From Brachypterus glaber (taxonomy: Eukaryota; Arthropoda; Insecta; Coleoptera; Kateretidae), in the NCBI GenBank assembly GCA_958510825.1, contig OY294046.1:10208847-10272846 (forward strand): 64,000 nt of DNA, written 5' to 3'. The notes below the pieces were generated by a model that searched no databases, was not told where the DNA came from, and was given only the letters and a program-made list of their open reading frames with translations. This document shows positions 3,111 through 64,000 of this stretch, piece after piece (position 1 is the first letter of the stretch; each line of letters opens with the position of its first letter). The translations under genes and the position numbers were made by a program.

Positions 3111-3112
3111 TA

Positions 3113-3433
3113 TAGAACTAAATACTATTTATAATATATTCAATAATGGTATAATCCCCTGTCTGTAATACTACATCCATGTTGGTTACCATAAATATCT
3201 TAAACCATGAGATATTTAGGTTACCAAACTTATTTATTTGTAGAGCTGTTAAAGTATACCAGATTTAAAGTTTTTCAATCACTTATATAATTATAAACAA
3301 TTTTTATATTTAGAAACGCTGGACAAAAAAGAAAATAAAAAATAAAATAAAAATTGTGTTTTTTTTTTATCAATAATTGTATAAAATTCTATAGAACGGT
3401 TTATCATAAGGCAAAAAATAATATGTGATAAAA
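3113..3433 (+). repeat. Right copy of the direct duplication
   Basis: Matches 1096-1335 joined to 1830-1933, lacking the roughly 490 bp present in the left copy. It continues past the AATAATA where the palindromic element is attached in the left copy. Confidence 0.75.
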
Positions 3434-8985: not shown

Positions 8986-9380
8986 TCCAAACGTATAAAA
9001 ACTATTAAATTTTCTATTTGTTTTAATGCGTAATTTTTTATAGGATCCTTAAGTACTTGTGATCTGGAGGAGCGAAGGAAAATTGTTTAAAACGAGAAAA
9101 AAATATTAAATAAATAATATTAAAATAAATAAATATTAAATAAATTAATAAAAAATTAAATAAGAACACGTATATTTCCAGCTCTAAAAAAAGAAAAATT
9201 AAAATCAATTTCTAAAACTAATACATTTTTTTAATTTCTAATTGGACATTTAATTTATATGTAAACCAGAGAGGCACGAATTATAAGTTAATCATTATTT
9301 ACGAACTGGGTATAATTAGGCTACCAATTATGGTCCATCGAATAAAAAAACTCGATAAACGATGGTATAAAAAAGCAAAA

Positions 9381-10010
9381 CATGTTATAATTTATTATTT
9401 TTTAGAGATGAACTCACCGTCAATTGAGGCATGTAGGATCAAAAGGCGATAAGTCCAACTGAGATTACTTTTGAAAAATTAAAAACATGTTATAATTTAT
9501 TATTTTTTAGAGATGAACTCACCGTCAATTGAGGCATGTAGGATCAAAAGGCGATAAGTCCAACTGAGATTACTTTTGAAAAATTAAAAACACGTTATAA
9601 TTTATTATTTTTTAGAGATGAACTCACCGTCAATTGAGGCATGTAGGATCAAAAGGCGATAAGTCCAACTGAGATTACTTTTGAAAAATTAAAAACATGT
9701 TATAATTTATTATTTTTTAGAGATGAACTCACCGTCAATTGAGGCATGTAGGATCAAAAGGCGATAAGTCCAACTGAGATTACTTTTGAAAAATTAAAAA
9801 CATGTTATAATTTATTATTTTTTAGAGATGAACTCACCGTCAATTGAGGCATGTAGGATCAAAAGGCGATAAGTCCAACTGAGATTACTTTTGAAAAATT
9901 AAAAACATGTTATAATTTATTATTTTTTAGAGATGAACTCACGGTCAATTGAGGCATGTAGGATCAAAAGGCGATAAGTCCAACTAAGATTACTTTTGAA
10001 AAATTACAAA
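9381..10010 (+). repeat. Tandem repeat, 6 copies of 105 bp
   Basis: Units start at 9381, 9486, 9591, 9696, 9801 and 9906 (CATGTTATAATTTATTATT, once CACG). Only a few substitutions occur across 630 bp, so the array was recently amplified or is homogenised. Confidence 0.97.
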
Positions 10011-11474
10011 AAACTGTCATACTTCTTGTACGAGACATTCAATCTGAATCCTGTGGAATTTTATTCAGCTAGATGGGAGTTATTATTGGTACAAACAAAA
10101 ATTGCAAGAAAATATTAAATATTTTCCGAATATTTTCCGAAATATTTATAAAATTAGTTTGGACTTCTGACGTTTGGAATTTTCCCCACTGATTTAAACT
10201 TCCTCAAAAAAGGAGATTTTTTTTAATCGGAGCATCGGAAAGGCAGGGTTTTTTTTATAGTCAAGTGCCTTAAAAAGGCTCTCGAAAAGTTTTATGAAAC
10301 ATATGCTTTATGATTTTTTTTGTAGGAAAGTTTGTAGTTATTATTATACTATTTACAGCGCCTGCGCTAGAATATTATTATACGTAGTTTCGAATTTTCA
10401 AAAAAAAATCAAAAATTGTCCTAGACAAAAAATTCTTAAATATAAATTTTAAAAGAAATCTGAAAAATTTTTGATTTTTTTTTTATTTTTCGTTTTTCAC
10501 AAAAAGAAAATTAAAAAAAAAAATCTAAAAATTTGGAAAAATTTTTTTTTGACTTATCGTTTTTTCAAAAAAAAGTCTTTAAAAAAATGTTTTTTTTTAT
10601 TTTCTTATTGAGAATTATTATTTTTAAGTATTTGGGAAAACGCAATATACCATTTACTATGAATGGCATACATAATGTATAATGGAATGCATAGCATTAA
10701 AAATCTTCACGGCTTGTGATTTACATTAAACTTTATGTCGGATTCTTACTAGATAGTGGAAACGCCAAAGCGTTTGAATACAGCCATATTTTTAATATTT
10801 TTGATTTGGGGGTGTGGGGATGTAGCAAAAATGTATACAAATATTTTTTTGTTTTTGTATTAATTTTCATTTTTAGCTGGTTGTAGATTTTTTTCTTACT
10901 TAAATATCGAAAACATAACAGCCAACACAAATTTTGTAACCCACTTACTCCATACACATGTACTTAGTACCTTTTGATTCTAACATCGATTTTTATCGTT
11001 AAAAATACTTAAAAAAGACAGACGCATGCTATATACCTTATTCGATATATAGGGCTATAGCCCTTGAAATGTAGATTTAATGGTATAAAAATCTAATTTT
11101 TGAAAATTTTGATTCGGCATGCCTCAATTTACGATCTGTATTACGATTGATTAATTTAAAATAATTATACTCACCAGCACTCTTTTTTAAAAGATATTTA
11201 AATTACTTTCAAATTTCCAAATCAGTCATTTTGGACCATCATTATTAGGGCCCGGGAGTCGTGGGACTCCTACTCGAAATAATTATTTTTGTATTAAGAG
11301 CGCAAAAATTACACATTTTGCGCTCGTAATACAAACAACGTTTTTTCTACGATCTAAAATAAATAAATAAATTTCAGGCAGTAAATTTATTTATTTATCT
11401 ACGGGATATGAAGTGTATGAAGTGTTTGAATTTTTGTACATTTTGCGTTACGTAATACTTGAACGTTCCCTTAG
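10011..11474. other. AT-rich repeats, no gene; hairpin and MITE fragment near the right end
   Basis: 10620-10740 is related to the sequence flanking the palindrome at 37982-38700 (ATACCATTTACT-TGAAT and CTTCACGGCTTGTG blocks). A hairpin lies at 11291-11334, with arms TTGTATTA-GAGCGCAAAA and its complement. 11447-11472 matches the right terminus of the 19189-19338 MITE (GCGTTACGTAATACTTGAAC). Confidence 0.45.
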
Positions 11475-15395: not shown

Positions 15396-15409
15396 TAATG
15401 TAGTTGGTA

Positions 15410-16388
15410 CCATCATTTTCATAGAAAACGCTCACATCACAGAACCCTGAGGTACACCAACATTTTAAATTTTTAGTTATGGTATATATACTTTACTAAG
15501 ATTGGCACTGACATTTTCCGTAATAATTAAGTAAGGTTAAAGTACAGTCTATATTATATAGTGCAAGTCCTATAACTGTCTTTAAGCGTATATGCTTATA
15601 AGCAAAAAGGTTAACAAATTTTATTATAAATGATATTTATACAGTATGTCTCCAGATAGAGTTACAAAGAGGAATTTATTTTTTATTTTTGATTTGATCT
15701 CAAAAAAAGTCACTCTTGATAACTTGCCCTGCTTGATTTTAAACTCCCAAAACACTAAGCGCTTTTTGTACAACTCTTACGGTTCATGGGATAATGTTTT
15801 TTTCTTCAAAATAGTGTCTTCAAAAATATAAAGAAAAAAAAACATCATCAAGAGTGACTTATTTTAAGATATGAAAAATAAAAAAATCTTCTTTGTAATT
15901 CTAACAGTTGGTTTGGTAATTTGGTGTAATTTTTGCGTGCCAAGCCTCAATGATGGCCTGTCGTAATTCTTCAGCATTATGACCCAGGAAAGTTAGTTTC
16001 TTCCCTCGCTCTGACTCCGGTATGGAAAGGGTTTTCCCGCAGATAATTCATTAATTGCATATCTTCTTCTGCACTACTCATTCTACTTCGAACAGAACCC
16101 CGCTTTCTGCTAATCTGTCCAGTTTCCTCAAGTTTTTTCTTTGCTCGGATTATAGTGCTGTTTGCAACATTTAATTCAGTGGCTATTTCACGTACACTTA
16201 TCCCGTCATTTATTCTTGCTGTTATAATACATTTTTGATAATTTGTAAGCTGCGGCATAACTAATGTGAATTATTTTGACAAGTAATGTCATAATAATAT
16301 TTGACAAATAAATGTCAAAGAGACCTTGATAAAGTTCAATATAATCTGTAACATTTTTAGGTGTAAGCGTTTATTATGAAAACGATGG
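15410..16388 (-). mobile_element. Internally deleted Tc1-like transposon, tandem copy 1
   Basis: This 979-bp element lies between TA dinucleotides at 15408 and 16389. Its inverted ends are CCATCATTTTCATAGAAAAC and the complement of CCATCGTTTTCATAATAAAC. On the minus strand it carries the N-terminal helix-turn-helix of a Tc1-like transposase and a short C-terminal remnant. The catalytic DDE region is missing, so the copy cannot move by itself. Confidence 0.9.
15977..16258 (-). pseudogene. Truncated Tc1-like transposase, N-terminal DNA-binding part
   Basis: The 93-residue frame starts MPQLTNYQKCIITARIN and contains a helix-turn-helix (about residues 12-60, DGISVREIATELNVANSTI). A basic linker and the start of the second DNA-binding helix set follow, ending at ETNFPGS. 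An internal deletion then joins it, out of frame, to a C-terminal remnant (HNAEELRQAIIEAW) encoded leftward to about 15915. A typical Tc1 transposase has about 340 residues; none of the DDE catalytic residues are present. Confidence 0.85.
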
Positions 16389-16390
16389 TA

Positions 16391-17371
16391 CCATCATTTT
16401 CATAGAAAACGCTCACATCACAGAACCCTGAGGTACCCCAACATTTTAAATTTTTAGTTGAGGTATATGTACTTTACTAAGATTGACACTGACATTTTCC
16501 GTAATAATTAAGTAAGGTTAAAGTACAGTCTATATTATATAGTGCAAGTCCTATAACTGTCTTTAAGCATATATGCTTATAAGCAAAAAGGTTAACAAAT
16601 TTTATTATAAATGATATTTATACAGTATGTCTCCAGATAGAGTTACAAAGAGGAATTTATTTTTTATTTTTGATTTGATCTCAAAAAAAGTCACTCTTGA
16701 TAACTTGCCCTGCTTGATTTTAAACTCCCAAAACACTAAGCGCTTTTTGTACAACTCTTACGGTTCATGGGATAATGTTTTTTTCTTCAAAATACTGTCT
16801 TCAAAAATATAAAGAAAAAAAAACATCATCAAGAGTGACTTATTTTAAGATATGAAAAATAAAAAAATCTTCTTTGTAATTCTAAACAGTTGGTTTGTGT
16901 AATTTGGTGTAATTTTTGCGTGCCAAGCCTCAATGATGGCCTGTCGTAATTCTTCAGCATTATGACCCAGGAAAGTTAGTTTCTTCCCTCGCTCTGACTC
17001 CGGTATGGAAAGGGTTTTCCCGCAGATAATTCATTAATTGCATATCTTCTTCTGCACTACTCATTCTACTTCGAACAGAACCCCGCTTTCTGCTAATCTG
17101 TCCAGTTTCCTCAAGTTTTTTCTTTGCTCGGATTATAGTGCTGTTTGCAACATTTAATTCAGTGGCTATTTCACGTACACTTATCCCGTCATTTATTCTT
17201 GCTGTTATAATACATTTTTGATAATTTGTAAGCTGCGGCATAACTAATGTGAATTATTTTGACAAGTAATGTCATAATAATATTTGACAAATAAATGTCA
17301 AAGAGACCTTGATAAAGTTCAATATAATCTGTAACATTTTTAGGTGTAAGCGTTTATTATGAAAACTATGG
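16391..17371 (-). mobile_element. Internally deleted Tc1-like transposon, tandem copy 2
   Basis: Nearly identical to copy 1 and in the same orientation, 981 bp, sharing one TA with copy 1 (16389-16390) and one with copy 3 (17372-17373). The internal deletion is the same, so all three copies descend from one already-deleted element. Confidence 0.9.
16960..17241 (-). pseudogene. Truncated Tc1-like transposase, second copy
   Basis: The translation is identical to the copy 1 fragment. It has the helix-turn-helix only, the catalytic domain is deleted, and the frame shifts into the C-terminal remnant. Confidence 0.85.
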
Positions 17372-17373
17372 TA

Positions 17374-18340
17374 CCATCATTTTCATAGAAAACGCTCACA
17401 TCACAGAACCCTGAGGTACCCCAACATTTTAAATTTTTAGTTGTGGTATATGTACTTTACTAAGATTGACACTGACATTTTCCGTAATAATTAAGTAAGG
17501 TTAAAGTACAGTCTATATTATATAGTGCAAGTCCTATAACTGTCTTTAAGCATATATGCATATAAGCAAAAAGGTTAACAAATTTTATTATAAATGATAT
17601 TTATACAGTATGTCTCCAGATAGAGTTACAAAGAGGAATTTATTTTTTATTTTTGATTTGATCTCAAAAAAAGTCACTCTTTATAACTTGCCCTGCTTGA
17701 TTTTAAACTCCCAAAACACTAAGCGCTTTTTGTACAACTCTTACGGTTCATGAGATAATGTTTTTTTCTTCAAAATAGTGTCTTCAAAAATATAAAGAAA
17801 AAAAACATCATCAAGAGTGACTTATTTTAAGATATAAAAAATAAAAAAATCTTCTTTGTAATTCTAACAGTTGGTTTGTGTAATTTGGTGTAATTTTTGC
17901 GTGCCAAGCCTCAATGATGGCCTGTCGTAATTCTTCAGCATTATGACCCAGGAAAGTTAGTTTCTTCCCTCGCTCTGACTCCGGTATGGAAAGGGTTTTC
18001 CCGCAGATAATTCATTAATTGCATATCTTCTTCTGCACTACTCATTCTACTTCGAACAGAACCCCGCTTTCTGCTAATCTGTCAAGTTTTTTCTTTGCTC
18101 GCATTATAGTGCTGTGCAACATTTAATTCAGTGGCTATTTCACGTACACTTATCCCGTCATTTATTCTTGCTGTTATAATACATTTTTGATAATTTGTAA
18201 GCTGCGGCATAACTAATGTGAATTATTTTGACAAGTAATGTCATAATAATATTTGACAAATAAATGTCAAAGAGACCTTGATAAAGTTCAATATAATCTG
18301 TAACATTTTTAGGTGTAAGCGTTTATTATGAAAACGATGG
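17374..18340 (-). mobile_element. Internally deleted Tc1-like transposon, tandem copy 3
   Basis: A 967-bp copy with both inverted ends and flanking TA at 17372 and 18341. Compared with copies 1 and 2 it has small extra deletions in the transposase remnant near 18080-18120. Confidence 0.9.
17943..18210 (-). pseudogene. Tc1-like transposase remnant, third copy, frameshifted
   Basis: Same start (MPQLTNYQK) at 18210 on the minus strand. Missing bases near 18115 (GCTGTGCAAC, where the other copies read GCTGTTTGCAAC) and near 18083 break the helix-turn-helix frame. Confidence 0.8.
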
Positions 18341-18342
18341 TA

Positions 18343-19174
18343 CCTATATTATGACATAAGGACGAAAAATAGTTTTTAAGGCGATTACTGTGTTGCCAAC
18401 CGAGCTAGGAGTGTAAGGTTGACAACTGTAATCATCCTAATAATTATTTTCGCCTGTGTATCATAAACTATTTATTATATTATTTATTTACATCGGCACT
18501 TAGTGCTACTAAAAGTGTATTGAAATCTTCGCCGAAATGTCAAAATCTATGACCATGTTTTTTTCATATTTCTCGACGTTTTAGACCTTTTTGAGTCGAA
18601 ATCGGGAAAAAAATTTTTTTCGTCCGTCCGTCTGTCTGTAAACTCGATAACTCCATTTTTAAATAAGATATCGACAAGTGTTTTTTTGCATATTGTTTCT
18701 TATCGTATTTCGAAGATCTGTTTAGATTTTTGGAGTAGATTGGGGTAAGGGGTAAGAATGGGGTAAAATTACTATTTTTAGGGTTTTTGGTTAATTGAGG
18801 CAATTATTATTGTATTTTATTAATTTAGCACTTATATGAAAGATAATTTTAAAGAATGTTACAATCACTTTTTTCCTTAAATGCATTGTTTTCGAGATAT
18901 TGGCGTTTAAAGTAGTAAAATGTTTTTTTAGCATATCTCACTTATTTATGAACCGATTTCAACAAATTTTATTTCAAATAAAAGCTCTTTTTAAGCCCTA
19001 GAATATAACGTTTTGGAGATAAAGACTTTACAACTTTAATAAATTATGCAACACGCAGATGTATTAACGGTTGCCTATTCACACAACTTCCTATTCCATA
19101 AAGTTTCAAATTAGTGCCTAGTGCCGATGTTTTGACAAGGTGCTTGCAACTGTTCAGCTGGTTAGTATTCGTTT
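18343..19174. other. AT-rich, repeat-derived DNA, no gene
   Basis: Contains a weak inverted pair at about 18350-18470, a CGTCCGTCCGTCTGTCTG run (18620-18637), and an AGTGCCGATGTTTTGACA block (19115-19136) shared with 52953-52975. Translations are low-complexity. Confidence 0.4.
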
Positions 19175-26712: not shown

Positions 26713-28080
26713 ATAAGTGAAGCGTATATAAGTATTATCTTCACATTCAAATTCTAGGGCTTCTTTAGTTTTTTTTTTTAATTTAAAATTGAAAGTAAAA
26801 AGTTTTAAAAAATTGCCTACGGCGCTTTAGCTTTATCCATTTTTAAGGAGCTTAAAACTGCACTACTGTTTTGAAATTAAAATAGATCTTTGTAAAAAAT
26901 TTTTACATCTTTTTTTTTTATTTGATAATGTTGTTTTTTAAATTTAAGATTGTAAAGCTTGAGTTTTAAAAGAAGAGAATAGAAAAAACGTTAGAAATTA
27001 ACATAATTAAAAAAAAAACAAATAAATTGCCTGCTGCGCTAACGCTAACGATGACCTTTTTCTAGTCCACTTTTTCTTTTTATTCGAGTTTGTATAACCT
27101 AAGGCCTAACCAGAGGCTCGCATAACTAGCATGATACATAACATACGATGCCGTGATTGGCTTGATGTGCCGTCATGTATCTTGTGCGCTGGATTATAGC
27201 GTTATGTTAGGCTAGCATAAGAGCCTGTGGATAGGCTCTTAAGCGAGAAATTTGTAAAAAATTTCTTTTGCAGCGCTAGAGCTTTTTGCATTTTTAAAAA
27301 TTTTTAAATTGTAACACTGTTATAGACCATCGAAATGGTAAGATTTTGTATAAAAATTAACAGAATTCGTAAAAAAAATTGCCTGCGGCGCTAATTTAGT
27401 TGATGAAGGACTGGTGACCATTTTTTAATCATCACTACAGCCCTGAGTGGGAAAATATTGCTTTGGAAAATGGGAGGGCCCGGGAAAAAATCTTTCCCGG
27501 GGCCCCACGGGGCCCAGCCCTGTCTCCGTGTATATATTTGATATTTTCAGCCTATTTCATTTATTTATTTATTTATAGTCTTTCTGGGACCTATAAAAGG
27601 TGTTTTATACCTTAGTCGACTGTTTTAATACAACAAATTTTGAATAGATACTTTTTATAAAATGAATATATTCAAAGGATATTCGAATATCCTTTGCGGA
27701 TAAGAAGAGTATGAAAAAGATAATCGCAAAACACAAATCAGCGAGATACGGCGTGAAAAATTAATTTACTCGTAAATATTTTCTTGTATCACTTGTTTAA
27801 CTGTAAACTATGATATATTTCATGTGAGTTTTTTTTTAATGGAAGGCGTTGGTTTGTGTTGGTTAGGTGTTTTTTTTTTAATGGGAGGCATTTTTCAGAG
27901 ACGATATTTCAGAATTTAGAAGGCGATATATTTTAAGAAACAAATAGGATTATATTTAGGCTAAATAATTTAGCTTTAGCTATAGCTTATTATATATTAT
28001 TATAATTAAATAATAAATGCTCGCCTGCTGTAACAATATGTATAAGAAATTCATTGTTTTAATCAAATATTGAGAACCTC
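26713..28080. repeat. Degenerate repeats with TTGCCTGCGGCGCTA motif; no gene
   Basis: The motif (A)ATTGCCT(A/G)C(G/T)GCGCT recurs at about 26812, 27026 and 27381, and a variant GCAGCGCTAGAGCTTT at 27271. A small hairpin MITE lies at about 27105-27235 (CCAGAGGCTCGCAT and complement of CCACAGGCTCTTAT). 27830-27975 carries the CCTCCCATT-type repeat in reverse. Confidence 0.5.
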
Positions 28081-28084
28081 TGGA

Positions 28085-28493
28085 CTTTTTTAATGCCTTT
28101 TTGTCTTCCAGAAAATTCAGGGTACTTATTGGGGATGTATTTAGCGGGGTTCCCCAAGGATCCGTGCTTGGGCCCCTTCTTTTCTTAATATATATAGCCG
28201 ACATTGTAAGCCATGTCGAGTCAACCAGCTCACAGTACGCCGATGACATGAAGTTTTATGCCAATCCATACATATATCATGACCAACTCCAACGTGACTT
28301 AAATAACATCTTTGAGTGGAGCAAATCGTGGCTTCTTCCTTTAAATATATCCAAATGTTGCGTACTTCACATTGGTAAGAATAACCCCCGGTACAACTAT
28401 ACAATAAACAATGCTCAACTTATGGTTACTGAATCACAAGAGGATCTTGGTGTCACAATAAACTCAAATCTCTCGTGGTCCGAACACATATCT
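28085..28493 (+). pseudogene. LINE reverse transcriptase fragment, 5' of the LTR insertion
   Basis: The translation contains the non-LTR reverse transcriptase signature GVPQGSVLGPLLFLIYIADI followed by the catalytic SSQYADD and the downstream LNISKCCVLHIGK and EDLGVTINSNLSWSEHI blocks, typical of the CR1/L2/Jockey group. Everything upstream of the GVPQGS motif (endonuclease, fingers) is absent, so the copy is 5'-truncated. The frame is open until the LTR element interrupts it at 28494. The same element resumes at 34105. Confidence 0.9.
28490..28493. repeat. 4-bp target duplication ATCT (left)
   Basis: ATCT immediately precedes the left LTR and is repeated at 34101-34104 after the right LTR, inside the LINE sequence. 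Confidence 0.92.
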
Positions 28494-30630
28494 TGTACCG
28501 TAATTAATACGTTCACTGCCAACGGCTAGTTTTGACAGCGGAGCAATGGGTATGGGCAAGGGAAAAATAGAAAGAATTGATTAATGTTGTTAGGGGCGCC
28601 AGTTACTTTAGCTTTTACTCCTTTAGGTAAGTAACAACCTAGTGTAAATACTTAAGCTTTTCAGTTTGAGAAAATATAAACCCTAAATAAAATAAGATAA
28701 TTCATTTGAGAAATTTATTATAAATAAACTTAATGAAAGCACATCAAGTAATGTATTAATATATCTAAAAAATATGTGTAATTATATTAAGATATAATTA
28801 AAGAAATCTTAATAAAAATTACTAAATTCAGAAATCATTCGACTTAAATGTATAAAGAAAACATGAAGTTCAGCAAGCACCAAGAAATGTATGTAAACAA
28901 CAATCATTTCTTGCAGTGTATAAAAGTCATGCTTAAATTAGAAATCATTTAATCAAAAGTATGATATTTAATAATTAATAAATGAGATTAAATGTTTAAA
29001 AAAAAATAAGTACCTAAAAATGAACAAAAGCCAGAAGGGCATATAGTATTAATCAATACTATATCAGATCTGATAAAGTTTACAGTTATAAGAATATTGA
29101 AATAAAAGAATTTAAAAATATGAAATATTGCTTTCAAAAGTTTTCAGAATGAGTACTTAGCTGGTTTCTGCAAAATCCATGAGGTATGAATTCCATCGTC
29201 TCCATCTGTGCAAGTCTCCCCTATGCTGATGAATTCATTTCTCAAATGAAAGAAAAAAAAATATAGGCTGTCCCATCTACTTTGGAAAAATTATCTTCCA
29301 GGATAAAATGTACGATTGAAAATGTTGTCCGGGATTAAATATGCTTTTGAAAATTATGTCCAATATAAAATTGTCTGCTAGACGGTCATATAGAATTTAT
29401 CTATGCCAAAAAATACAGAACCATGTTCCAACAGAACATCACTCCATGCGGAGAACTTGTATATCAAATATACCAAAATAAACTTCAACTTAAATTAATG
29501 TAATTCCATATTAATGGTATAGAAATGGTGAGTAATTAATGGTAATTAATTAATGTAGTAATAATGGTGCTTAATTAATGTAGTAATAATGGTCTAGTAA
29601 TTGTGCTTAATTAATGGTGCTAAAACAATAATTATATCTCAGAAATATTCTAAGAAACAGAAAAACTTAACTTACATGTCATTCTAAGTCTTCGATGTCC
29701 ATCGAAACGTTATAAATGCATAATTGTAGAAAATAACAGTTATAATATCTTCCGCATTGTTTAAATATTCATTTTCACTAACTTTAAATAAAAATACATG
29801 AAGGATTACTTCGATGATTACAGAAAATAAACACTCGTCAAAATGACACCACCATTGTACAGAGTTCATCAAGAAAGAGCGAAAATCGACCTTATCAACC
29901 GGTATGAACCCTTCAGGTAAATAAAATCCTATTTCTGAACTATTAGCGACATCTATGTAAGTCATTATCAACTACAGTTTTACCGTATAGGATTCCTAAT
30001 AAAGGTAACTGAAACTACATCAAAGATAATAACCAAAAAGAATATTTCCTAATAAATCCGTATTAGTGATATCTAACCTCAAAATATTACTCTAAGAAAC
30101 AAATATAAACAATACTTATTGTTTATCAGCAAAACTAATAAAAATACGAACAGAATACTAAGTGTCCTGTGAACTAAGTATAAACAAAATACTGAATCTA
30201 AGTGAGCAGTTCCAGCAAACTATTTTCAACAAATTCTGGATTATCCCGAAGCAATAATCATATGAAACTTTCCAGGAGAGACAAGCTACAAATGAAAGCC
30301 AGTGAAATCCAACCCTCAATAGACTCTGAAACATATAAAAACCAGGTAAGTCCATAGACAAATGCACTATAGAGAAATAAGTCATATGATTCTTTATTAT
30401 TAAAAATCATATTCTAATTATGTTTTCTTTATGTTATTTTCAGGTAGAACTATGGAATAGAGACTCATATGGTTAGAATTCAGTTCCTGCTACAAAATAG
30501 TCCCAGATACAAAATAGTTCTGTACGTACGTAACTATTTATATACAAAATAAACATAAATTATAACGTAAGTAAACGAATAGTTTAATTAACCCTTGCTA
30601 TATTACAAAGTGACGATTTATGTCGTTACA
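28494..30630 (-). repeat. Left LTR (3' LTR in element orientation), 2137 bp
   Basis: Starts with TG and ends with CA (TGTACC...GTTACA). It retains a 31-bp segment near 29300-29340 that the right LTR has lost between short GGAT repeats. Open frames inside occur identically in both LTRs and show no known domain. Confidence 0.93.
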
Positions 30631-31994: not shown

Positions 31995-34100
31995 TGTACC
32001 GTAATTAATACGTTCACTGCCAACGGCTAGTTTTGACAGCGGAGCAATGGGTATGGGCAAGGGAAAAATAGAAAGAATTGATTAATGTTGTTAGGGGCGC
32101 CAGTTACTTTAGCTTTTACTCCTTTAGGTAAGTAACAACCTAGTGTAAATACTTAAGCTTTTCAGTTTGAGAAAATATAAACCCTAAATAAAATAAGATA
32201 ATTCATTTGAGAAATTTATTATAAATAAACTTAATGAAAGCACATCAAGTAATGTATTAATATATCTAAAAAATATGTGTAATTATATTAAGATATAATT
32301 AAAGAAATCTTAATAAAAATTACTAAATTCAGAAATCATTCGACTTAAATGTATAAAGAAAACATGAAGTTCAGCAAGCACCAAGAAATGTATGTAAACA
32401 ACAATCATTTCTTGCAGTGTATAAAAGTCATGCTTAAATTAGAAATCATTTAATCAAAAGTATGATATTTAATAATTAATAAATGAGATTAAATGTTTAA
32501 AAAAAAATAAGTACCTAAAAATGAACAAAAGCCAGAAGGGCATATAGTATTAATCAATACTATATCAGATCTGATAAAGTTTACAGTTATAAGAATATTG
32601 AAATAAAAGAATTTAAAAATATGAAATATTGCTTTCAAAAGTTTTCAGAATGAGTACTTAGCTGGTTTCTGCAAAATCCATGAGGTATGAATTCCATCGT
32701 CTCCATCTGTGCAAGTCTCCCCTATGCTGATGAATTCATTTCTCAAATGAAAGAAAAAAAAATATAGGCTGTCCCATCTACTTTGGAAAAATTATCTTCC
32801 AGGATTAAATATGCTTTTGAAAATTATGTCCAATATAAAATTGTCTGCTAGACGGTCATATAGAATTTATCTATGCCGAAAAATACAGAACCATGTTCCA
32901 ACAGAACATCACTCCATGCGGAGAACTTGTATATCAAATATACCAAAATAAACTTCAACTTAAATTAATGTAATTCCATATTAATGGTATAGAAATGGTG
33001 AGTAATTAATGGTAATTAATTAATGTAGTAATAATGGTGCTTAATTAATGTAGTAATAATGGTCTAGTAATTGTGCTTAATTAATGGTGCTAAAACAATA
33101 ATTATATCTCAGAAATATTCTAAGAAACAGAAAAACTTAACTTACATGTCATTCTAAGTCTTCGATGTCCATCGAAACGTTATAAATGCATAATTGTAAA
33201 AAATAACAGTTATAATATCTTCCGCATTGTTTAAATATTCATTTTCACTAACTTTAAATAAAAATACATGAAGGATTACTTCGATGATTACAGAAAATAA
33301 ACACTCGTCAAAATGACACCACCATTGTACAGAGTTCATCAAGAAAGAGCGAAAATCGACCTTATCAACCGGTATGAACCCTTCAGGTAAATAAAATCCT
33401 ATTTCTGAACTATTAGCGACATCTATGTAAGTCATTATCAACTACAGTTTTACCGTATAGGATTCCTAATAAAGGTAACTGAAACTACATCAAAGATAAT
33501 AACCAAAAAGAATATTTCCTAATAAATCCGTATTAGTGATATCTAACCTCAAAATATTACTCTAAGAAACAAATATAAACAATACTTATTGTTTATCAGC
33601 AAAACTAATAAAAATACGAACAGAATACTAAGTGTCCTGTGAACTAAGTATAAACAAAATACTGAATCTAAGTGAGCAGTTCCAGCAAACTATTTTCAAC
33701 AAATTCTGGATTATCCCGAAGCAATAATCATATGAAACTTTCCAGGAGAGACAAGCTACAAATGAAAGCCAGTGAAATCCAACCCTCAATAGACTCTGAA
33801 ACATATAAAAACCAGGTAAGTCCATAGACAAATGCACTATAGAGAAATAAGTCATATGATTCTTTATTATTAAAAATCATATTCTAATTATGTTTTCTTT
33901 ATGTTATTTTCAGGTAGAACTATGGAATAGAGACTCATATGGTTAGAATTCAGTTCCTGCTACAAAATAGTCCCAGATACAAAATAGTTCTGTACGTACG
34001 TAACTATTTATATACAAAATAAACATAAATTATAACGTAAGTAAACGAATAGTTTAATTAACCCTTGCTATATTACAAAGTGACGATTTATGTCGTTACA
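31995..34100 (-). repeat. Right LTR (5' LTR in element orientation), 2106 bp
   Basis: Near-identical to 28494-30630 except for a 31-bp deletion and isolated substitutions. It should hold the element promoter, but no TATA box can be assigned with confidence. Confidence 0.93.
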
Positions 34101-36779: not shown

Positions 36780-37262
36780 AAATTTTTGGTGTCGCTGATC
36801 ACGAATCTGTTATCAAATTTTTAAAATTTAAAATGGCGGATCCAACATGGCTGACCGAATTTGTAAAATTAAGTCTAATTGTAATAGAAATTGGTATATA
36901 TGACTTTTTGGTGTCGCTGTTCACGAATCTGTTCAGATTTTTAAAATTCAAAATGGAGGATCCAATATGGCTGACCGAATTCGTAAAATTAAGTCTAATT
37001 GTAATAGAAATTGGTATATATGAGTTTTTGTTGTCGCTGTTCACGAATCTGTTCAGATTTTTAAATTTCAAAATGGCGGATCCAATATGGCTGACCGAAT
37101 TCGTAAAATTAACTCTAATTGTAATAGAAATTGGTATATATGAGGTTTTGGGTAGCTTATTACGAATCTGTTATCAGATTATAAAAGTTCAAAATAGCGG
37201 ATCCAATATGGCGGACCGAATTAGTAAAATTTTTATATCGACCATGAACATGCAATACCTCC
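36780..37262 (+). repeat. Tandem repeat, 4 copies of about 120 bp
   Basis: Each unit has AATGG(C/A)GGATCCAA(T/C)ATGG, GTAATAGAAATTGGTATATA and CACGAATCTGTT. Because 120 is a multiple of three, a long frame stays open on both strands, but the encoded protein is only the repeat and has no family match I know. The fourth unit is diverged. Confidence 0.93.
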
Positions 37263-37441: not shown

Positions 37442-37981
37442 AAATATGTTTTAGTCTTACATTTAAACTATTCTAGCTTATATTGTACATGTAGTTAGGA
37501 GATATTGGCCAAAAATGTCAGTTAGGAGGTATTGCATGTTCATGAACGATATGTAGGTTTTTGGTGTAGCTGATCACGAATCTGTTATTAGATTTACATT
37601 CAGCACCTAAAAACCCATTATTCAAATTTTGACAAAAATCACCCCCACCCCTAAGGGGGTGGATTTAGAAAAAAAATATTTCAAGATTCAGTTTTAGCAA
37701 TCTCAAAAACCCCATACGTAAAAATTTTCACGAATATATTGAAAACATTTAAAAATATTTACCACCTCAAAAAAAAAATTTTTGTATTTTTTTTTTAAAT
37801 AATTGTTTTTTTTTATATTTTTTTTATTTTTCGTTTTTCAAAAAAAGAAATTGTTAAAAATTTTATTTTTAATTTTTAAATAGATGTTTTAAAAAAATTG
37901 TTATTTTTTTTAATTATTTTTTTTTTTTAATTGTTTTGATGTATTTGGAAAAATGCAATATACCATTTACTGTGAATAGTA
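37442..37981. other. AT-rich repeat-like DNA, no gene
   Basis: Contains long A/T runs and a CCACCCCTAAGGGGGTGGAT hairpin near 37650. It ends with ATACCATTTACTGTGAATAG, homologous to 10648-10670. Confidence 0.4.
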
Positions 37982-38700
37982 CAGAGCGGTCCAAAAGTCA
38001 CCCCCCCCTCTTAACTTTTGAACCAGTTGAGATATCGACTTCAAATTTTGAACTTTTAAATGAGACAACTTAAACTACCTTTTAGCATATATTTAATACT
38101 TCCAGCTCTTAAAATGTGGGCAGGGGGGCATGGGGGCACATTTTTTTAAATGGAAAGGGGGGGTCGTGTAATACATCATTTTAAAGCTTATAAAATTCTC
38201 CATTTAACTCCATATTTTTAAAATAAAAAAAAAAATTTTGGGTTTAAAATGGGGTTGAAAATGGGTATCTATTAATGTCAAAATTCCTCTAAAAAAAAAC
38301 AAATAATTTTTTAAAAATGCCTAATTTCATCATAAAAAAATGTTAATTATACTTTTAAACTAATTTTAGTTGACATAAATAAAAATTTATAAAAAAAAAC
38401 TTAAAAAATCGAATGTTTTAGCACAAAAAATTGAAAAATCAAAACCTTAAAAAACATTTAAAAATATTAGTTTAAATAGAGAATTTTATAAGCTTTAAAA
38501 TGATGTATCACACGACCCCCCTTTCCATTTAAAAAAATGTTCCCCATGCCCCCCTGCCCACATTTTAAGAGCTGAAAATATCAAATATATGCTAAAAGAT
38601 AGTTTAAGTTGTCTTATTTAAGAGTTCTAAATTTGAAGTCGATATCTCAACTCGTTCAAAAGTTAAAAGGGGGGGGGGGGGTGACTTTTGGACCGCACTG
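37982..38700. mobile_element. Palindromic element, family F3, copy A
   Basis: 719 bp with inverted ends CAG(A/T)GCGGTCCAAAAGTC followed by a C run. The arms include GAGATATCGACTTCAAATTT and CCACATTTTAAGAGCTG. TA flanks both sides. Sequence on either side is homologous to the uninterrupted 10640-10730 region, supporting insertion. Other copies: 47288-48014, fragments at 57872-57898 with 58868-59370, and 60822-60908. Confidence 0.88.
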
Positions 38701-39606
38701 TATAATGAATTGTGTAACATTACATATCTTTACGGCTTATTTTTTACTAAAATATTTTTTTAAATTAATTTTCTTTCAAATTCAAGGTCTGAGTTTGGAA
38801 AATGACTTTGTAAATTTTAAAAAATTTAACCTGCGGCGCTAAATACCAACAATGTAATCACATTGGAAAATTTGAATAAAACTTTTTTTTTAATCAATTT
38901 GCTTTTCAAAAATATTTTGTAATATTTACAGAAATTTTTCTCTGTGTGGGTAACATTATGTGCTAAGATTGTATAGTTAGTGATAATATTTGTGAATAAA
39001 ACATATTTTAAACTACCGTCTAGATACACTGCAGGGCAAAAGTCATGAAAACTAGAAGGTCATGGAATTTTGAAAGCAGCCGCGACTAAGCTTTTATGAG
39101 GTCCAGCATTTTTATTCAAGTTGTCAATTTTGACAACTGTCTAATTCTTTTATTTATGTATTTATGTTTTTAGTAAAAAACTTTGTGATTTTCTCATTTT
39201 AATGCTGTGATTATGAGCTTATAAGAGTCGCAAAATAGAACAAAATATTTTGTAAAATGTGAAATTCTTATGGAAAGGCAACATTAATGGAATGTAATAT
39301 AAAGGCTTTTAATGCACATTAAAATGATTGAAAAACTATAGTCATTCAATAGTCCTTCAAATTAAGAAAATATTTTGGCAAAACAAAGAAAATTTTCCAT
39401 ATGATTTTAACAAATTACCTTCTCAATCCAGTTTACTATCCCTGCAAGTAAAATTTGAAAATCACTCGGCATCTTCTAACAGGATATACACATCCAATAA
39501 CTTCCTTACAATAAGGAAAATTATTTGGCAGAACAAAGAAAAATTACCATAAGAAAATTTTTGGTCCTTTTAAGATATTACGTGCCTCTACTGACTTATA
39601 CCTATT

Positions 39607-45249: not shown

Positions 45250-48200
45250 GTAAAGTATTGCTGCCAAAAAATAATTTCCCGCATTCATTGAAAATAATTT
45301 AAAAATGTTATACTTAGTTTTTACGAAACTAATCCCATTACTCCCATCCGTTGTACATTGAATAGACGCAATTGGTTGCGTTTTTGTGACACATTCCAAA
45401 CACCATAACTTTGGATTTGGGTTTCAGTTTAAAATGACAGTGTTTTATCAGTTTTCACCGCCATGGAGCGCCACGAAGTAATTTAAGATAGAGAAAGTTT
45501 TGCCCCGGGACTGTGTAACTGTATCGAAGTTTTAATAAAAATTTTATTAAAAGTTTTGCAATTTAGGTAAAATTCAAAATAAATGTACCTAATTCATGAA
45601 GTCCCAAGGACAAAAATAAGTTAAAATTTTGTTTATTTTAAGTTATCTTGTCCTGAAACTTAAAATTTCGTATTCTATAACGAAAAAAATTGGTATATCA
45701 GCGAGAGATACAGCAGCCAAAATGTTTGTAAGAAAGTAATAACTAGGGAAACACGTCTGAACGTAATTTTTTAATTTTAGAACTGCCCGAGCGTATTACT
45801 TGGCGTGTACAAAAAAATCACCATACATACATATTTGAAATAGGGTCGGAAATTTTAACAGGTGATTCTACATGATAAAATATGACAATAAGTTCCTATA
45901 AACATATGTCTAAAAATGCGTCATAAGGGAGCTACGCCCCTTTGAAATTAGCTAAAAAAATCGGTTTTTATTTAATAACTCAGGAACCCTTTGAGATATA
46001 TTAACGAGGTTTTGCACGTCAACTAATCCTAATAAGGCCCATCTTTGTATGTCATTTTCACGTACTTATTTAAACCAGGGGTGTGCGAAACGGGGAGGCC
46101 TTATCAGTTTTTTGTCCAAAACTTTTTTCTGTGTATATTTTTTGCAATTTTATTTTTGAAATATGATTCCTCAGGTCAAAATACATAAAAAAGGTACTCT
46201 TGTTGTAATACTGTAGGATTAACCGTTTTCGAGAAAAGTTCATTTGAAAGTGAAATTTCACGGTTCGAGGACGAAAAATTAAAAACTAAAATGTCGAAAA
46301 CCAAAATTTTAATAATGCAATGTTATTCTACATCAAAAACTAAGAAAAAAAGTTTCCATACATGTAGGTCGAAAAAACGCTTTTAAAGCTACCATAGCCC
46401 TTTAAAAATGGTGCATATTTAGGAGACCATAGCTCCATTAGGATCCATTTTTGGAAGTACCTGTATATGAGATTTTTTTCTTAGTTTTTAATGTACATTC
46501 GCTCTGCATTATTAAAATTTTGGTTTTCAACATTTTAGTATTTAATTTTTCGTCCTCGAACCGTGGAATTTCACCTTCAAATGAATTTTTCTCGAAAACG
46601 GTTAATCCTACAGTATTACAACAAGAGTACCTTTTTTATGTATTTTGACCTGAGGAATCATATTTCAAAAATAAAATTGCAAAAAAGTTACACAGAAAAA
46701 AGTTTGGGACAAAAAACTGATAAGCCCCCCCCGTTTCGCACACCCCTGGTTGAAATAAGTACATGAAAATAACACATAAAAACGGGCCTTGGTAGGATTA
46801 GTTGACGTGCAAAACCTCGTTAATAAATCTCAAAGGGTTCCTGAGTTATTAAATAAAAACCGATTTTTTTAGCCAATTTCAAAGGGGCGTAGCTCCCTTA
46901 TGACGCATTTTTAGACATATGTTTATAGGAACTTTTTGTCAAATTTTATCATGTAGAATCACCTGTTAAAATTTCCGAGCCTATTTCAAATACACCCTGT
47001 ATATATTATACATATCGCCTTGTAAATTCCGAAACATCGTATCTGAAAAATGACCACTTGACAGGTATAACAAATTATCCTTTTTTAAACAATTAATAAG
47101 GTATTTATTTAGAACTTTATTAATTACATAAACAAGAATAAGTTCTTAGTAATATAAATTAGTCAATTATTAAATTACTACCCTACTAATTCCATAAAAA
47201 AGAATAATTTCTAGTCTCTGGCAAGTTCCCATTTTTCAGATACGATGTTTCGGAATTTACAAGGCGATATTATACATATTATACATACAGTGCGGTCCAA
47301 AAGTCACCCCCCCCCCTTTTAACTTTTGAACGAGTTGAGATATCGACTTCAAATTTAGAACTCTTAAATAAGACAACTTAAACTATCTTCTAGCATATAT
47401 TTGATATTTTCAGCTCTTAAAATGTGGGCAGGGGGGTATGGGGGACATTTTTTTAAATGGAAAGGGGGGTCGTGTGATACATAATTTTAAAGCTCATAAA
47501 ATTCTCTATTTAAACTAACATTTTTTATTTTTTTAAAAATGTTTTTTAAGGTTTTGATTTTTCAATTTTTTGTGCTAAAACATACGATTTTTTAAGTTTT
47601 TTTTTATAAATTTTTATTTATGTCAACTAAAATTAGTTTAAAAGTATAATTAACATTTTTTTATGATGAAATTAGGCATTTTTAAAAAAATATTTGTTTT
47701 TTTTAGAGGAACTTTGACATTAATACCCATTTTCAACCCCATTTTAAACCCAATTTTTTTTTTTAATTTAAAAATATGGAGTTAAATGGAGAATTTTATA
47801 AGCTTTAAAATGATGTATTACACGACCCCCCTTTCCATTTAAAAAATTGTGCCCTTATGCCCCCCTGCCCACATTTTAAGAGCTGAAAGTATTAAATATA
47901 TGCTAAAAGATAGTTTAAGTTGTCTTATTTAAAAGTTCCAAATTTGAAGTGTCGATATCTCAACTGGTTCAAAAGTTAAGAGTGGGGGGGGGGGGTGACT
48001 TTTGGACCGCTCTGTATACATATATGTATAAATGGCAAAAAAATAAAATTAAGATGTTTTTGAATGTATTATTGCTTGTGTGAATAATATTTATTCTTTA
48101 ACATAATATGTCAACGACAAAAAAAATCAAGGACAGAAATTTTTAATTTTAAACAAAATTATAAAAATATTAATTTATTATTCCATCAATCTATTTTCTA

Positions 48201-51200
48201 ATCATCGTACAGAGTGATATTGGTAGACTGGCAGTTTCGGGCTGCTGGCCCTCTTCAGTACCAAGAGTCAACTCTGCACGCTGATTAAGAAAACGTTTTT
48301 AGACTTAACTCGCAAAAGGAATATAGCCATTAGATTGATGTAGACTTGTGCGCCATCTATTTCTAGATGTAGACAACTACTCATACCTCTCCTAGTCTGG
48401 AGACTTTGAATGGTAGCAAGTTGAAGACTTGTGTCTCTCAAGCACATAGTACCACTAACGAGTGGTTAAACGTAGAATTAGTAAGGACAGAAATTTTTAA
48501 TTTTAAATAAAATTATAAAAATATTAATTTATTATTCCATCAATCTATTTTCTAATCATCGTACAGAGTGATATTGGTAGACTGACAGTTTCGGGCTGCT
48601 TGCCCTCTTCAGCCCGAAACTGTAAGTCTACCAATATCACTCTGTAGGATGATTAGAAAATAGATTGATGGAATAATAAAAAAAATCAAGTTAGGCGCGT
48701 CAAAAAATTAAAATTTTGCCTAAATTTTTTTAAATTTTATGTTTAATAAAAAAAATATAAACAAACTCTCAAGCACCTAAACGGGTTACTAATAACAACC
48801 AAAGTCTCTGGTGCAGAAATTCACTGGTGAAGAAACACACCATCATGACTTCTTCTTCTTCTTCTTCTTTTTTCTTAATTGTCTATTTGTAGGAAGAACA
48901 TTGGATGAACGAGTTCAAAATAAAATAGAAGCTGAAAATTACCATTTTAAGGATATAATTCAGGGCAGCTTCCTAGATACTTACAGAAATCTGACTTACA
49001 AGCACGTTATGATTCTCAAATATGTCAAATATCTTTGTGGAAATGTAAGTTATATTTTAAAGAGCGATGATGATGTATTTGTTAACATGAATGCGATGAG
49101 ACAATTAATTCAGGATAAATTTACAAACTCATATAGAGGTATGACTTTAAACTCAAATAAAGGTAAACTCCCTATGACAGGATTTCATAGAAAATCTCTT
49201 GCCATTACTCCATGCACATATCTGCTCTTGTCCAGTGAACGGAATTTTCCAACGATTCACTCACCGCAGTAATGAGAAGAATCCAGCGCATGCGGACTGA
49301 TTCTGTTTTGACGTATGCCTAAAATTATTTTAAGGTTATGTAACATTCTTTTGCAGAATTTTACAAAAAAATATACTTTTTTCTTATGCATATTGTTACA
49401 CCAGGCAAGCATTAATTTTTTAATTAGCTAAAGCCAAATTATTTAGCCTAAATATAATCCTATTTGATTCTTAAAATATATCGCCTTCTAAATTCTGAAA
49501 TATCGTCTCTGAAAAATGCCTCCCATTAAAAAAAAAACACCAAACCAGCAAACTACCAAACCATTGTTAACGTAAACCAACGCCTCCCATTAAAAAAAAA
49601 ACACAAAACCAGCAACTCAGATAAAGGTATGAATTTAGACTCAGATAACACTAGGCAACAAATCGCAACTGTTTTTTTTTGCCCCGATCGGAAAGTAAAT
49701 TTTTCTTACTAATTCGAAAGCGTAGAATCCGAATCTGACCTTAGAAAAATTCCAGCAACTAAAAATTTTGAGATATAAGTTCAGGTAATAATAACGTTTT
49801 TTTTTTCAAAATCTTTTAAAAAAAGAGTAGAATTTTGAAAATTTTAGTGTATACTAAAAAAAATACGAGGAATTCAAAAATCTATATGTCAAGAACCTAC
49901 TGTGTGAGTAAGTACGCGAAAAAAAATAAAAAGTTTAAAATGAAAGTGCAGAGTTTAAAAACTTTATAGAACTTAATTTGTAGATTATAAAATTCTCTAC
50001 AAAAATATTTATACAAATATTTTTTTATTTTGCTTAGTGTGTTCCTAAAGTAAATAAATGAAAAAGATATAAAATTAAAGTACACAGTGTAAACTTTTTT
50101 CCCGAGCCCAAAAAATATATTTTTCTTATCAATTTAAAGGCGCAGAATCCAAATTTGACCTTAAAAAAAATTCAGCACGTTTTATTTTTTAAATTTTAGT
50201 ACACGCAATTATGCCAATTTAAAAATAATTTATAAAACAAAATATTGTGTATTTTTTTTTTGTTTTTTTAATGGTTCTACATCATAAAAATGTTACTTTA
50301 TTACATAAGAACCATAATACGTAACATTTTTTTAGTTAATTTTGACCCCCTAGTAATGATTTATGACAATTTTTAACATGAGTACGTGGCGATAAGCTTG
50401 TCCCCTTATGCACCGTTCTTCTTACCCTCCATCCCTACTTAGTTTTGTCACATTATCCATTTTTTTTTAATATTTTTTTTTTCATAATATCCCTATTAAT
50501 TCTACCTATAAATTTAAAGTTTCTATGTTTTAAGTTGGGTATTTTTTAACTAATATTGAGTCGCCGAATCCAAATTTGTCCTTGGAATATTTTTGTCTTC
50601 CATGATTTTAGAACAAAAGAGGGATAAAATAATGATTTTTTAACATTTTTATCTTATTTTTCTCAGAAAACTTAGGTAATAGAAATATTTTGAGGCCAGA
50701 TTCGGTTTCAGCGACCCAAAATTAGTTAAAAAAGATATGACTCCAATCGGGGCAAGAAACCGTGTTGCCTAGTGTAATAGTATATTGTTTTACTAAGAGG
50801 AAAAGTAAAGCTTTTTTTTTACTAGTCCCTTAAAAATTTAAAACGACCGTGGATAAAGTATATTTTTCACTACTAGCTTTAGAACATACCATTATTTATC
50901 ATGTTTTCAGACTGAAATCAATTTTCTTCACCTATAGCAATAATAATTTTTCTTTCTCTCCTAGTAGGAGTAAATTTTATAAAAAATGATTTCTGCCACT
51001 TTAGATGTTTCAGTTCTTTGTGCAATTTTTACTAATTAAACCCAAGAAAATAGCTTTAAATAACTTTTTATTTATTAAATATAATTAATTATAATTATTA
51101 CCAATTAACAAAATCAATAATTGTAAAGCTAAATATTATTAAAAAAAAAATAAAAAAAACTAAATTTTTAAACGTCAGTTCAGAGTATTTATTTGAGAAA

Positions 51201-60821: not shown

Positions 60822-60908
60822 CAGTGCGGTCCAAAAGTCACCCCCCCCCCCCCCTTCTTAACTTTTGAACGAGTTTGGACTTCAAATTTAGAACTCTTAA
60901 ATAAGACA
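60822..60908 (+). repeat. F3 end fragment inside the 59860-61373 element
   Basis: CAGTGCGGTCCAAAAGTCAC, a C run and GAACTCTTAAATAAGACA match the F3 terminus, truncated after about 87 bp. Confidence 0.8.
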
Positions 60909-61140
60909 GTGCTAAAACCCCTTTTGTACAGAACTGTAAAACAATAATTATCGAAATTGTCACAAAGTTTTTTTTTAAATTAAATTAACAAATATATTAC
61001 TATGTATATTTAAGTTTATATTTATAATATACGTCTGTAATTTTTTTTTATTTTGCATAAAGACAAACATTGTGATAAAATAATGTACTTTGTTCCGTCA
61101 ATCACTCCTTAATTAATAAGTTGGTAATCAAGTGCATATA

Positions 61141-62658: not shown

Positions 62659-62787
62659 CTGAAAATATTGATAAGAATTATTTTAAATATTAAGCTTTCG
62701 CGGCCACTAAGATATAAAGAACTTCCAGTTTCGGAATAGTTACTAAATACTACAGATGTATTACTAAAATAATAGCTTTTAATTACG

Positions 62788-63058
62788 ATGTTAAAAAACT
62801 CTAAAAAAAAAGTGACATTAACTTTAATTGCTATTTTTACACTTTCAGCATATACGCTGTTGAAAAATTACAAAGAAGATTATTACAAGTTGATTGATTT
62901 GGACTTTTCGTTTAAAATACTAAATAAAGTATGTGAAAACGTAACACTAAAGTTACTTATAGCAGTACACAGTGCACCAGAAAATTTTGATAAAAGAAAC
63001 GCTTTAAGGACGACATGGGCTCAAAATAGAGAAGATACGAAGGTTTTATTCTTTATAG
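62788..63058 (+). CDS. Beta-1,3-galactosyltransferase paralogue, exon 1 only (partial gene)
   Basis: Encodes 90 residues plus one base: a short basic tail (MLKNSKKK), a membrane segment at about residues 9-25, a stem with a single EDYYKLIDLDFSF unit, then LKLLIAVHSAPENF, RNALRTTWAQNRED and VLFFI, ending at ATAG|GTAAAA in phase 1 exactly like exon 1 at 44910. It is highly similar to that exon, with differences near the N-terminus and stem. Exons 2 and 3 are expected beyond the window. No disabling mutation is seen, so it may be active. Confidence 0.88.
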
Positions 63059-64000
63059 GTAAAATATTGCTATCAAAAATTACTTTCCTCTACACATTAA
63101 TTATAAATAAATAAAAAATCTTAAAAAGCTAAAATGTTGTCTAAACTGTTTTAAATAACACTGGTCGACAAAAAAAAACATATCTCTCAATTTTGTGTGA
63201 TATATAATTTTCGATTAACTTTTTGATGCTGAACACGAATTTTACCTCCAGTTTTTGCCATCAGGTCAGGGTTCTGTGATAAATGCTACTGAGTTAAAAA
63301 AAAAAAACAAAAATCAAATATCATTATTTTCAGCCCCATACAATTTTTTTTCTAAGAACATTATATATCTTAAGAATACAGTTTTAAAAATGTTTTGTGT
63401 TTTTAGATATCTTTACGATTTAAAAAAAAGTGCAAAAAACTGAAAAAAAGTTAAACCTTTTTAAATCCCATTAGGGTGAATGTATTAGTAATGGACACAC
63501 AACACAATATTTTACCTTTGACCGCATGTATTTGGGGCTGTCCTTGCCTATAAAATTTAAAAAATAATGGAGCTATTGCTTTTAAATTAGGTAGTTGAGT
63601 ACTTTTTGGGTGTTGTTTATAAGCGCAAAAATTCGACAAATGTTACAACTGCCTAGACTCTCCTATTTAACGGATTTTAATTTTTAAAATATCATTTGAA
63701 AGTTTGAACTCTCTTCTATATGTGTTTAAATTTACAAGTATCAAAGAGCTTTATGTTCAATTCTGAGTAAAATTTTAATTTTTTTTTTAATCTGGATTGC
63801 AAAATTATTGTGCAAAAACTATCAGACCGATTTTGATGAAATTTGGTGTGATGATTTAGCACACCATAAAGTTTTCTTGGGCCAATTTACTATGTATACT
63901 TTTAGTATCCGAAAAAAAATCGCAAAAAAACTAGATTTTCTATCCGTTTTTTGCTATTTTTACTATTTTTGCAATAATAATAATTATTTTTTCAATTTGC
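63059..64000 (+). other. Start of intron 1 of the paralogue; nothing else recognised
   Basis: AT-rich sequence after the GTAAAA donor. It does not obviously match intron 1 of the first copy beyond the first few dozen bases. No exon or clear mobile element was identified. Confidence 0.5.

Follow-up and report, generated by a model that had tools for sequence, protein, structure and literature searches.

A hammerhead retrozyme family in the beetle Brachypterus glaber with insertion ends paired like those of Penelope-like elements

Metazoan retrozymes that lack long terminal repeats (LTRs) consist of short, non-coding tandem units of 150–450 bp and low GC content. They contain a type I hammerhead ribozyme, have a stable RNA fold, are flanked by duplications of more than 4 bp, and share their genomes with Penelope-like elements, or PLEs (PMC7229834). 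Which enzyme mobilises them has been left open, with PLEs as the suggested candidate (PMC7229834, PMC7761336). PLEs insert into AT-rich targets with duplications, carry an inverted partial terminal copy at one end, and have a hammerhead or hammerhead-like motif upstream of two internal start sites that lie tens of nucleotides apart (PMC11167929, PMC3846280). In an Anolis PLE, two neighbouring internal positions serve as starts for reverse transcription, cutting and extension affect both target strands, and the known tail is the stretch between the start sites (PMC11167929). Rotifer Penelope elements have inverted terminal copies, a 31-bp tail and 8–10 bp duplications (PMC3846280). Here we describe a family of 354-bp units in the beetle Brachypterus glaber, seen first in one copy at 48132–48677 of a 64,000-nucleotide stretch (assembly GCA_958510825.1, contig OY294046.1, positions 10,208,847 to 10,272,846 of the forward strand). 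We call this whole stretch the window and give positions within it. In our reading the family is probably a non-autonomous animal retrozyme, inserted by Penelope-type machinery with both target strands as primers at paired sites within a circular or multimeric RNA.

The copy in the window contains a complete type I hammerhead on the minus strand (48207–48279), recognised by its core and stems. The 5′ side of stem I (TTGGTA, 48264–48259) is followed by the CTGAAGA core (48258–48252), a stem II of the form GGGC-CAGCA-GCCC, and then GAAA. Stem III has 3 bp, including the conserved A-U pair. The cleavage residue C is at 48226 and the 3′ side of stem I (TACCAA) at 48225–48220, which places the predicted cleavage point at 48226/48225. 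An earlier note on this DNA had claimed the hammerhead parts at 48220–48264, and all of them are present. Stem I also continues beyond what the note listed: past an internal loop (TTGACTC/TATCA), an outer helix of 8 bp seals the motif at 48279 and 48207 and gives it the classical type I form. In 100 mononucleotide shuffles of the window, searched on both strands, a core accompanied by stem II and a minimal stem III arose four times, and such a core with a stem I of at least 4 bp and a stem III of at least 3 bp never arose. Hammerhead scans of viral and prokaryotic contigs gave 0 matches.

The insertion, whose RNA sense is the minus strand, is bracketed by an exact 13-bp target-site duplication (AAAAAAAATCAAG on the plus strand, CTTGATTTTTTTT in RNA sense; no strand assigned) at 48119–48131 and 48678–48690. 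A few bases at each end are common to insertion and duplication. The direct part (48132–48612, minus strand) is 481 nt long, or 1.36 units, and its 3′ end falls at a position that we define below as site A. Facing it is an inverted partial unit of 71 nt (48610–48680, plus strand) with its outer end at site B; 11 nt separate the two arms, and 48500–48700 folds as a hairpin of -111.6 kcal/mol. An Rfam match to mir-196 (43.4 bits, under the cut-off) was read as an artefact of this perfect hairpin. Since the inverted part lies inside the duplication, it was produced during insertion. The differences within the copy (3/127 between the direct copies, 2/71 between the inverted arm and its neighbour) are too few to decide anything when used as a clock.

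Several statements of the earlier note bear on this structure. The second core that it had reported 354 bp away lies at 48580–48612 (minus strand), within the long hairpin, and the spacing is real: the stretch repeated at this distance is 130 nt long, with 98% identity. Stem I cannot form there, because the inverted copy occupies the upstream side in RNA sense. Only one hammerhead is therefore complete at this locus, and the proposed release of a roughly 354-nt RNA from this copy by cuts at two sites is unsupported. The note had also described an inverted unit whose junction falls at the ribozyme core; this is true of the window copy, and in other copies the inner junctions scatter over the unit. 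The concern that the 354-bp spacing might be an assembly duplication is countered by the target-site duplication, which encloses the whole structure, and by the occurrence of the unit at many other places. We consider that explanation unlikely.

As the earlier note had advised, we searched the 648-Mb assembly from which the window comes for further units. The search gave at least 143 matches (40 of 1,076 candidates scored), and a search with the hammerhead as query at least 41 (40 of 543 candidates scored). From the unit search we took 40 distinct loci (set 1), using longer stretches in place of eight overlapping loci, and from the hammerhead search 25 loci (set 2), with five repeats of known loci dropped. 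Positions in the unit are counted from the cleavage site, u1 being the base just after it. The unit has 354 bp and 36% GC. It is non-coding, with a longest stop-free stretch of 65 codons in a tripled majority unit, and its RNA is highly self-paired (z -4.31; 0 of 100 shuffles fold as well). Among 138 hammerheads at the first 40 loci, 114 have an intact core with stems I and II. Stem III is palindromic (ACTGCAGT) in 49 of the 138, a form that may act as a dimer. Loci other than that of the window copy hold several intact hammerheads in tandem and could release the 354-nt RNA. Subtypes also occur (L009, L026–L031 and others), with TGCCAA or TATCAA in place of TACCAA in stem I, a G-U pair being kept in both.

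Judged from its sequence features, the element is a well-supported retrozyme: it has a type I hammerhead, 354-bp non-coding tandem units, a large dispersed family of low GC content, a duplication longer than 4 bp and a strongly self-paired unit RNA. In all these features, and in the presence of PLEs in the same genome, it is like the metazoan non-LTR retrozymes (PMC7229834), which bears out the animal-retrozyme identity that the earlier note had put forward. Circular RNA has been demonstrated for the described metazoan retrozymes (PMC7229834); for the present family it is predicted. Plant LTR retrozymes are alike in being non-coding and in having hammerheads and a circular RNA intermediate, but differ in their dimeric LTR arrangement, mostly type III hammerheads, 4-bp duplications, primer-binding site and polypurine tract (PMC4918200, PMC7761336).

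The usual arrangement at the 65 separate insertions is a direct array that meets an inverted part head to head. The inverted part is joined to the array in 35 of the 40 set 1 loci; the exceptions are L003, where the left flank is unsequenced, L006, where the inverted part occurs only in a neighbouring piece, and L008, L010 and L032. The outer ends fall at two sites. Site A ends lie at u95–102 (18 of 29 at u98) and site B ends at u47–56 (half of them at 52–53). Because unit and duplication usually overlap by 1–5 bases at the outer ends, the real sites are approximately u95–97 for A and u50 for B. With strict alignment-end labels, one end is A and the other B in all 34 insertions where both ends could be labelled (24 of the 40 loci of set 1 and 10 of the 25 of set 2). 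A motif-based method gives the same A/B pairing in 29 of 30 callable set 1 loci; as a B match can run into A, ends were called in this method by unit position, below 70 as B and above 90 as A. At five of the 25 set 2 loci, one or both ends lie outside the labels. The inner head-to-head junctions are scattered over the unit, and many show a short overlap of a few bases. The inverted parts end somewhat preferentially near u1–u59 (17/35).

In set 1, a locus's own flanks share at least 10 bp in 22 of 39 clean-flank loci, compared with 13 of 1,482 swapped pairs. When the ends are placed by motif, the duplication reaches 10 bp or more in 26 of 30, mostly 12 bp (9) or 13 bp (8); in set 2 it does so at 9 of 25 loci. 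For L036 an empty site is present in the window itself: at 60900–61120 the host repeat is uninterrupted, and the 13-mer duplicated at L036, TATGTATATTTAA, occurs there once. The unit family thus has an anatomy like that of PLEs, an inverted partial copy together with two alternative end sites that correspond to the tail. Head-to-head insertions with two fixed, paired end sites are not described for metazoan retrozymes in the sections of PMC7229834 consulted. Likewise, the A/B pairing rule was not found in the consulted parts of PMC11167929 and PMC3846280, nor in listings of retrozyme and Penelope papers from an open-licence collection in which most subscription journals are absent.

Two GIY-YIG families of the same genome show the same pairing. 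A GIY-YIG family search gave at least 31 matches (150 of 419 candidates scored), among them an element (L079) that encodes a reverse transcriptase and a GIY-YIG domain in a single frame of 716 aa. A 401-nt query from its terminal region gave at least 44 matches (40 of 159 candidates scored). By our count, 24 of these end in the query at 245–256, 17 at 212–221 and one at 227, and two run through. Taking neighbouring opposite-strand matches as one insertion, we find unlike ends in 10 of 10 head-to-head pairs of this family, and duplications of 13, 14 and 15 bp in the three of three pairs that were read as sequence. For the second family, queried with L086, there are at least 46 matches (40 of 696 candidates scored), and five of six pairs have unlike ends. 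Together, 15 of 16 pairs follow the rule. The distances are also similar: ends lie 53–62 and 86–97 nt past the end of the hammerhead-like motif in the L079 family, 64–78 and at least 96 nt past it in the L086 family, and about 50 and 97 nt past the cleavage site in the retrozyme. The 1,500 bases read upstream of L086 (L090) revealed no reverse transcriptase, so the PLE nature of this family rests on the GIY-YIG match and the ends. Three copies of a GIY-YIG repeat family (L082, L085 and L086) have a hammerhead-like CTGAAGAAGAAGG..CCTTCGAAACGTTGG about 96 nt ahead of their common end.

The retrozyme unit itself encodes neither a reverse transcriptase nor a GIY-YIG endonuclease and is therefore at most a non-autonomous PLE passenger. 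PLEs differ from it in encoding both enzymes, and its hammerhead is the classical, longer type I. As its insertions repeat PLE anatomy without a gene, we attribute their insertion to Penelope-type machinery. In the mechanism that we propose, the hammerhead would cut tandem transcripts and the monomers would be ligated into circles. A Penelope-type reverse transcriptase/endonuclease would then cut the two strands of AT-rich DNA at staggered positions, and the 3′ ends so released would each prime inside the circular or multimeric RNA, one at site A, about 97 nt past the cleavage site, and the other at site B, about 50 nt past it. Each complementary DNA (cDNA) could extend over less than one round of the template or over several. 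The two cDNAs would be joined head to head, often via a few common bases, and repair of the stagger would leave the target-site duplication. In the window copy, the cDNA begun at site A would measure 481 nt and the one begun at site B about 65–68 nt.

A more specific version of this mechanism, which we offer tentatively and would not yet favour, is that the insertion is concerted on both strands. The circular RNA would give a paired enzyme two start sites, each serving one target strand, with one A and one B end as the outcome. On this view the strand that starts at the outer site would leave the PLE tail as its footprint, and retrozymes would live as circular-RNA parasites, imitating the spacing from hammerhead to start sites in PLEs but not the PLE sequence.

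The arrays bear on the nature of the template. The longest direct array has 9.2 units (L031), and inverted parts reach 406 nt (L035) and 428 nt (L043), more than one unit. We compared 90 full units, excised by pattern at the cleavage site. Divergence is 1.06% within arrays (152 pairs) versus 1.96% between arrays (3,853 pairs), and 61 of 73 units have their closest counterpart within their own array, compared with a mean of 23% when the labels are shuffled. This likeness within arrays fits repeated copying of one circle, and it would also fit copying of an older array or local homogenisation. In one array (L034), full units alternate with units that lack a few bases near u328–333, as from a two-unit template. 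These data also bear on an alternative in which a linear multimeric transcript, made from an older array, serves as template in place of a circle, with insertion otherwise as proposed above. The Anolis PLE used unprocessed RNA in vitro (PMC11167929), and the two alternating unit lengths of L034 could come equally from a dimeric circle or from transcription of an array that already alternates. The within-array likeness speaks against a linear template, with the reservation that later homogenisation could produce the same figures. On balance we consider a linear template rather unlikely.

Mobilisation by a long interspersed nuclear element (LINE) would account for some of the same features. Nematostella retrozyme repeats, which have 15-bp duplications, have been likened to LINEs (PMC4918200). 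Duplications of 12–15 bp, as found here, are LINE-like too, and the window contains reverse-transcriptase remnants (RVT_1 at 28074–28526) that we read as being of LINE origin. By this account, ordinary target-primed reverse transcription would build the array, and the inverted part would come from LINE-type twin priming. Under twin priming the inverted part would begin at variable positions. In these insertions its start is constant, 46 nt away from the other end; the two ends of an insertion are of different kinds; and the PLE families of the same genome, the mobile elements compared here, share this paired-end pattern. A LINE origin is thus improbable: the retrozyme insertions bear a signature that is common to the PLEs of their genome and is not predicted by ordinary LINE models.

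Snap-back self-priming, in which the cDNA folds back and copies itself into the inverted part before its end joins the target, was our first model and came from the window copy. There, the cDNA end CAG can pair with a CTG 16 nt upstream to give the observed 11-nt loop, and at the single informative site the inverted arm is nearest to the adjacent copy. Self-priming on an antisense template has also been proposed for rotifer PLEs (PMC3846280). The model was dropped once other copies showed fixed, unlike ends. It leaves unexplained why the outer end of the inverted part is at site B (or A), always opposite to the other site where both are labelled, and at many loci the inner ends of the inverted and direct parts are far apart in the unit. 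We now regard it as highly improbable. Spread of satellite DNA by recombination or extrachromosomal circles, without reverse transcription, would explain tandem arrays of a short non-coding unit, but duplications above the control, an empty site and fixed paired ends make it scarcely credible.

Some observations weigh against insertion by Penelope-type machinery, or against parts of that reading. Compared with 11 PLE/GIY-YIG stretches, representing approximately three or four families, the unit has nothing in common with them but AT-rich runs (best 27 bp, E 0.15). Support for the Penelope connection suggested by the earlier note comes from insertion anatomy and not from shared sequence. A strict hammerhead descriptor finds nothing in these 11 stretches; the PLE motifs are hammerhead-like, and the L079 family has U at the first core C. 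One pair of the L086 family, at C1:21628482/21628742, has like ends. In the Anolis assay the start sites were alike for both strands, and hammerhead mutants still inserted (PMC11167929). Since the start sites did not differ between strands, the pairing rule may arise later, for example if only unlike pairs join, or may vary by element. Within the retrozyme family, the 65 loci sampled are the best-scoring copies, those most like the window copy. At 10 of the 25 set 2 loci the inverted part is absent and the far end is truncated at varied positions, and only one of these ten has a duplication of at least 10 bp. By the motif method, L031, with its ends at u68 and u47, breaks the pairing rule.

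The hammerhead itself calls for similar caution. Rfam covariance models, which the earlier note had recommended as a check, gave no family at gathering score in a scan of the whole window. The best hammerhead match, RAGATH-1-hammerhead, has 21.0 bits against a cut-off of 56.3 (E 0.11 in a 121-base search). Neither the core nor any stem is missing, so the shortfall marks a limit of model-based membership and not of the motif. In an energy model of the 73 nt, the active fold has -18.5 kcal/mol and an alternative -26.1, so that the active fold is not the predicted minimum. The model leaves out hammerhead tertiary contacts, and for this reason we take the preference as a caution only.

The reading of these insertions as products of Penelope-type machinery has two practical consequences. 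The rule of one A and one B end is a simple feature that can be checked in other animals, and the question of how retrozymes are mobilised can now be put to the test by combining circular unit RNA with a PLE protein.

The host of the window copy is a galactosyltransferase-like gene on the plus strand, in which two exon frames further downstream show a Galactosyl_T domain. Of the 20 proteins that match the gene product best, 15 are named, and all 15 come from beetles (41–45% identity). As the earlier note had stated, the insertion is antisense to the gene and intronic: it lies within an intron at 45250–48892 (plus strand, GT..AG), between the first two coding exons found. The host pre-mRNA would hold a 71-bp hairpin from the inverted part (48528–48680), which could give rise to small RNAs. 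A frame closely like exon 1 of this gene, probably from a paralogue, is present at 62776–63114.

Other repeats lie in the same intron and elsewhere in the window. About 100 bp from the retrozyme insertion is a 0.7-kb element (47283–48020) with long terminal inverted repeats (CAGTGCGGTCCAAAAGTCACCCCC...) and TA ends, which we read as mariner-like; a 94% copy of it is at 37980–38703. Two 1.17-kb stretches (1943–3114 and 45832–47003) are 95% identical and each about 90% palindromic, the second sharing the intron with the retrozyme. Direct duplications of about 2 kb with 98–99.8% identity occur at 15405–18344 and at 28494–30630 with 31995–34100, and are either recent or made in assembly. Tandem arrays are found at 9377–10011 (105 bp x 6.0) and 36783–37231 (120 bp x 3.7).

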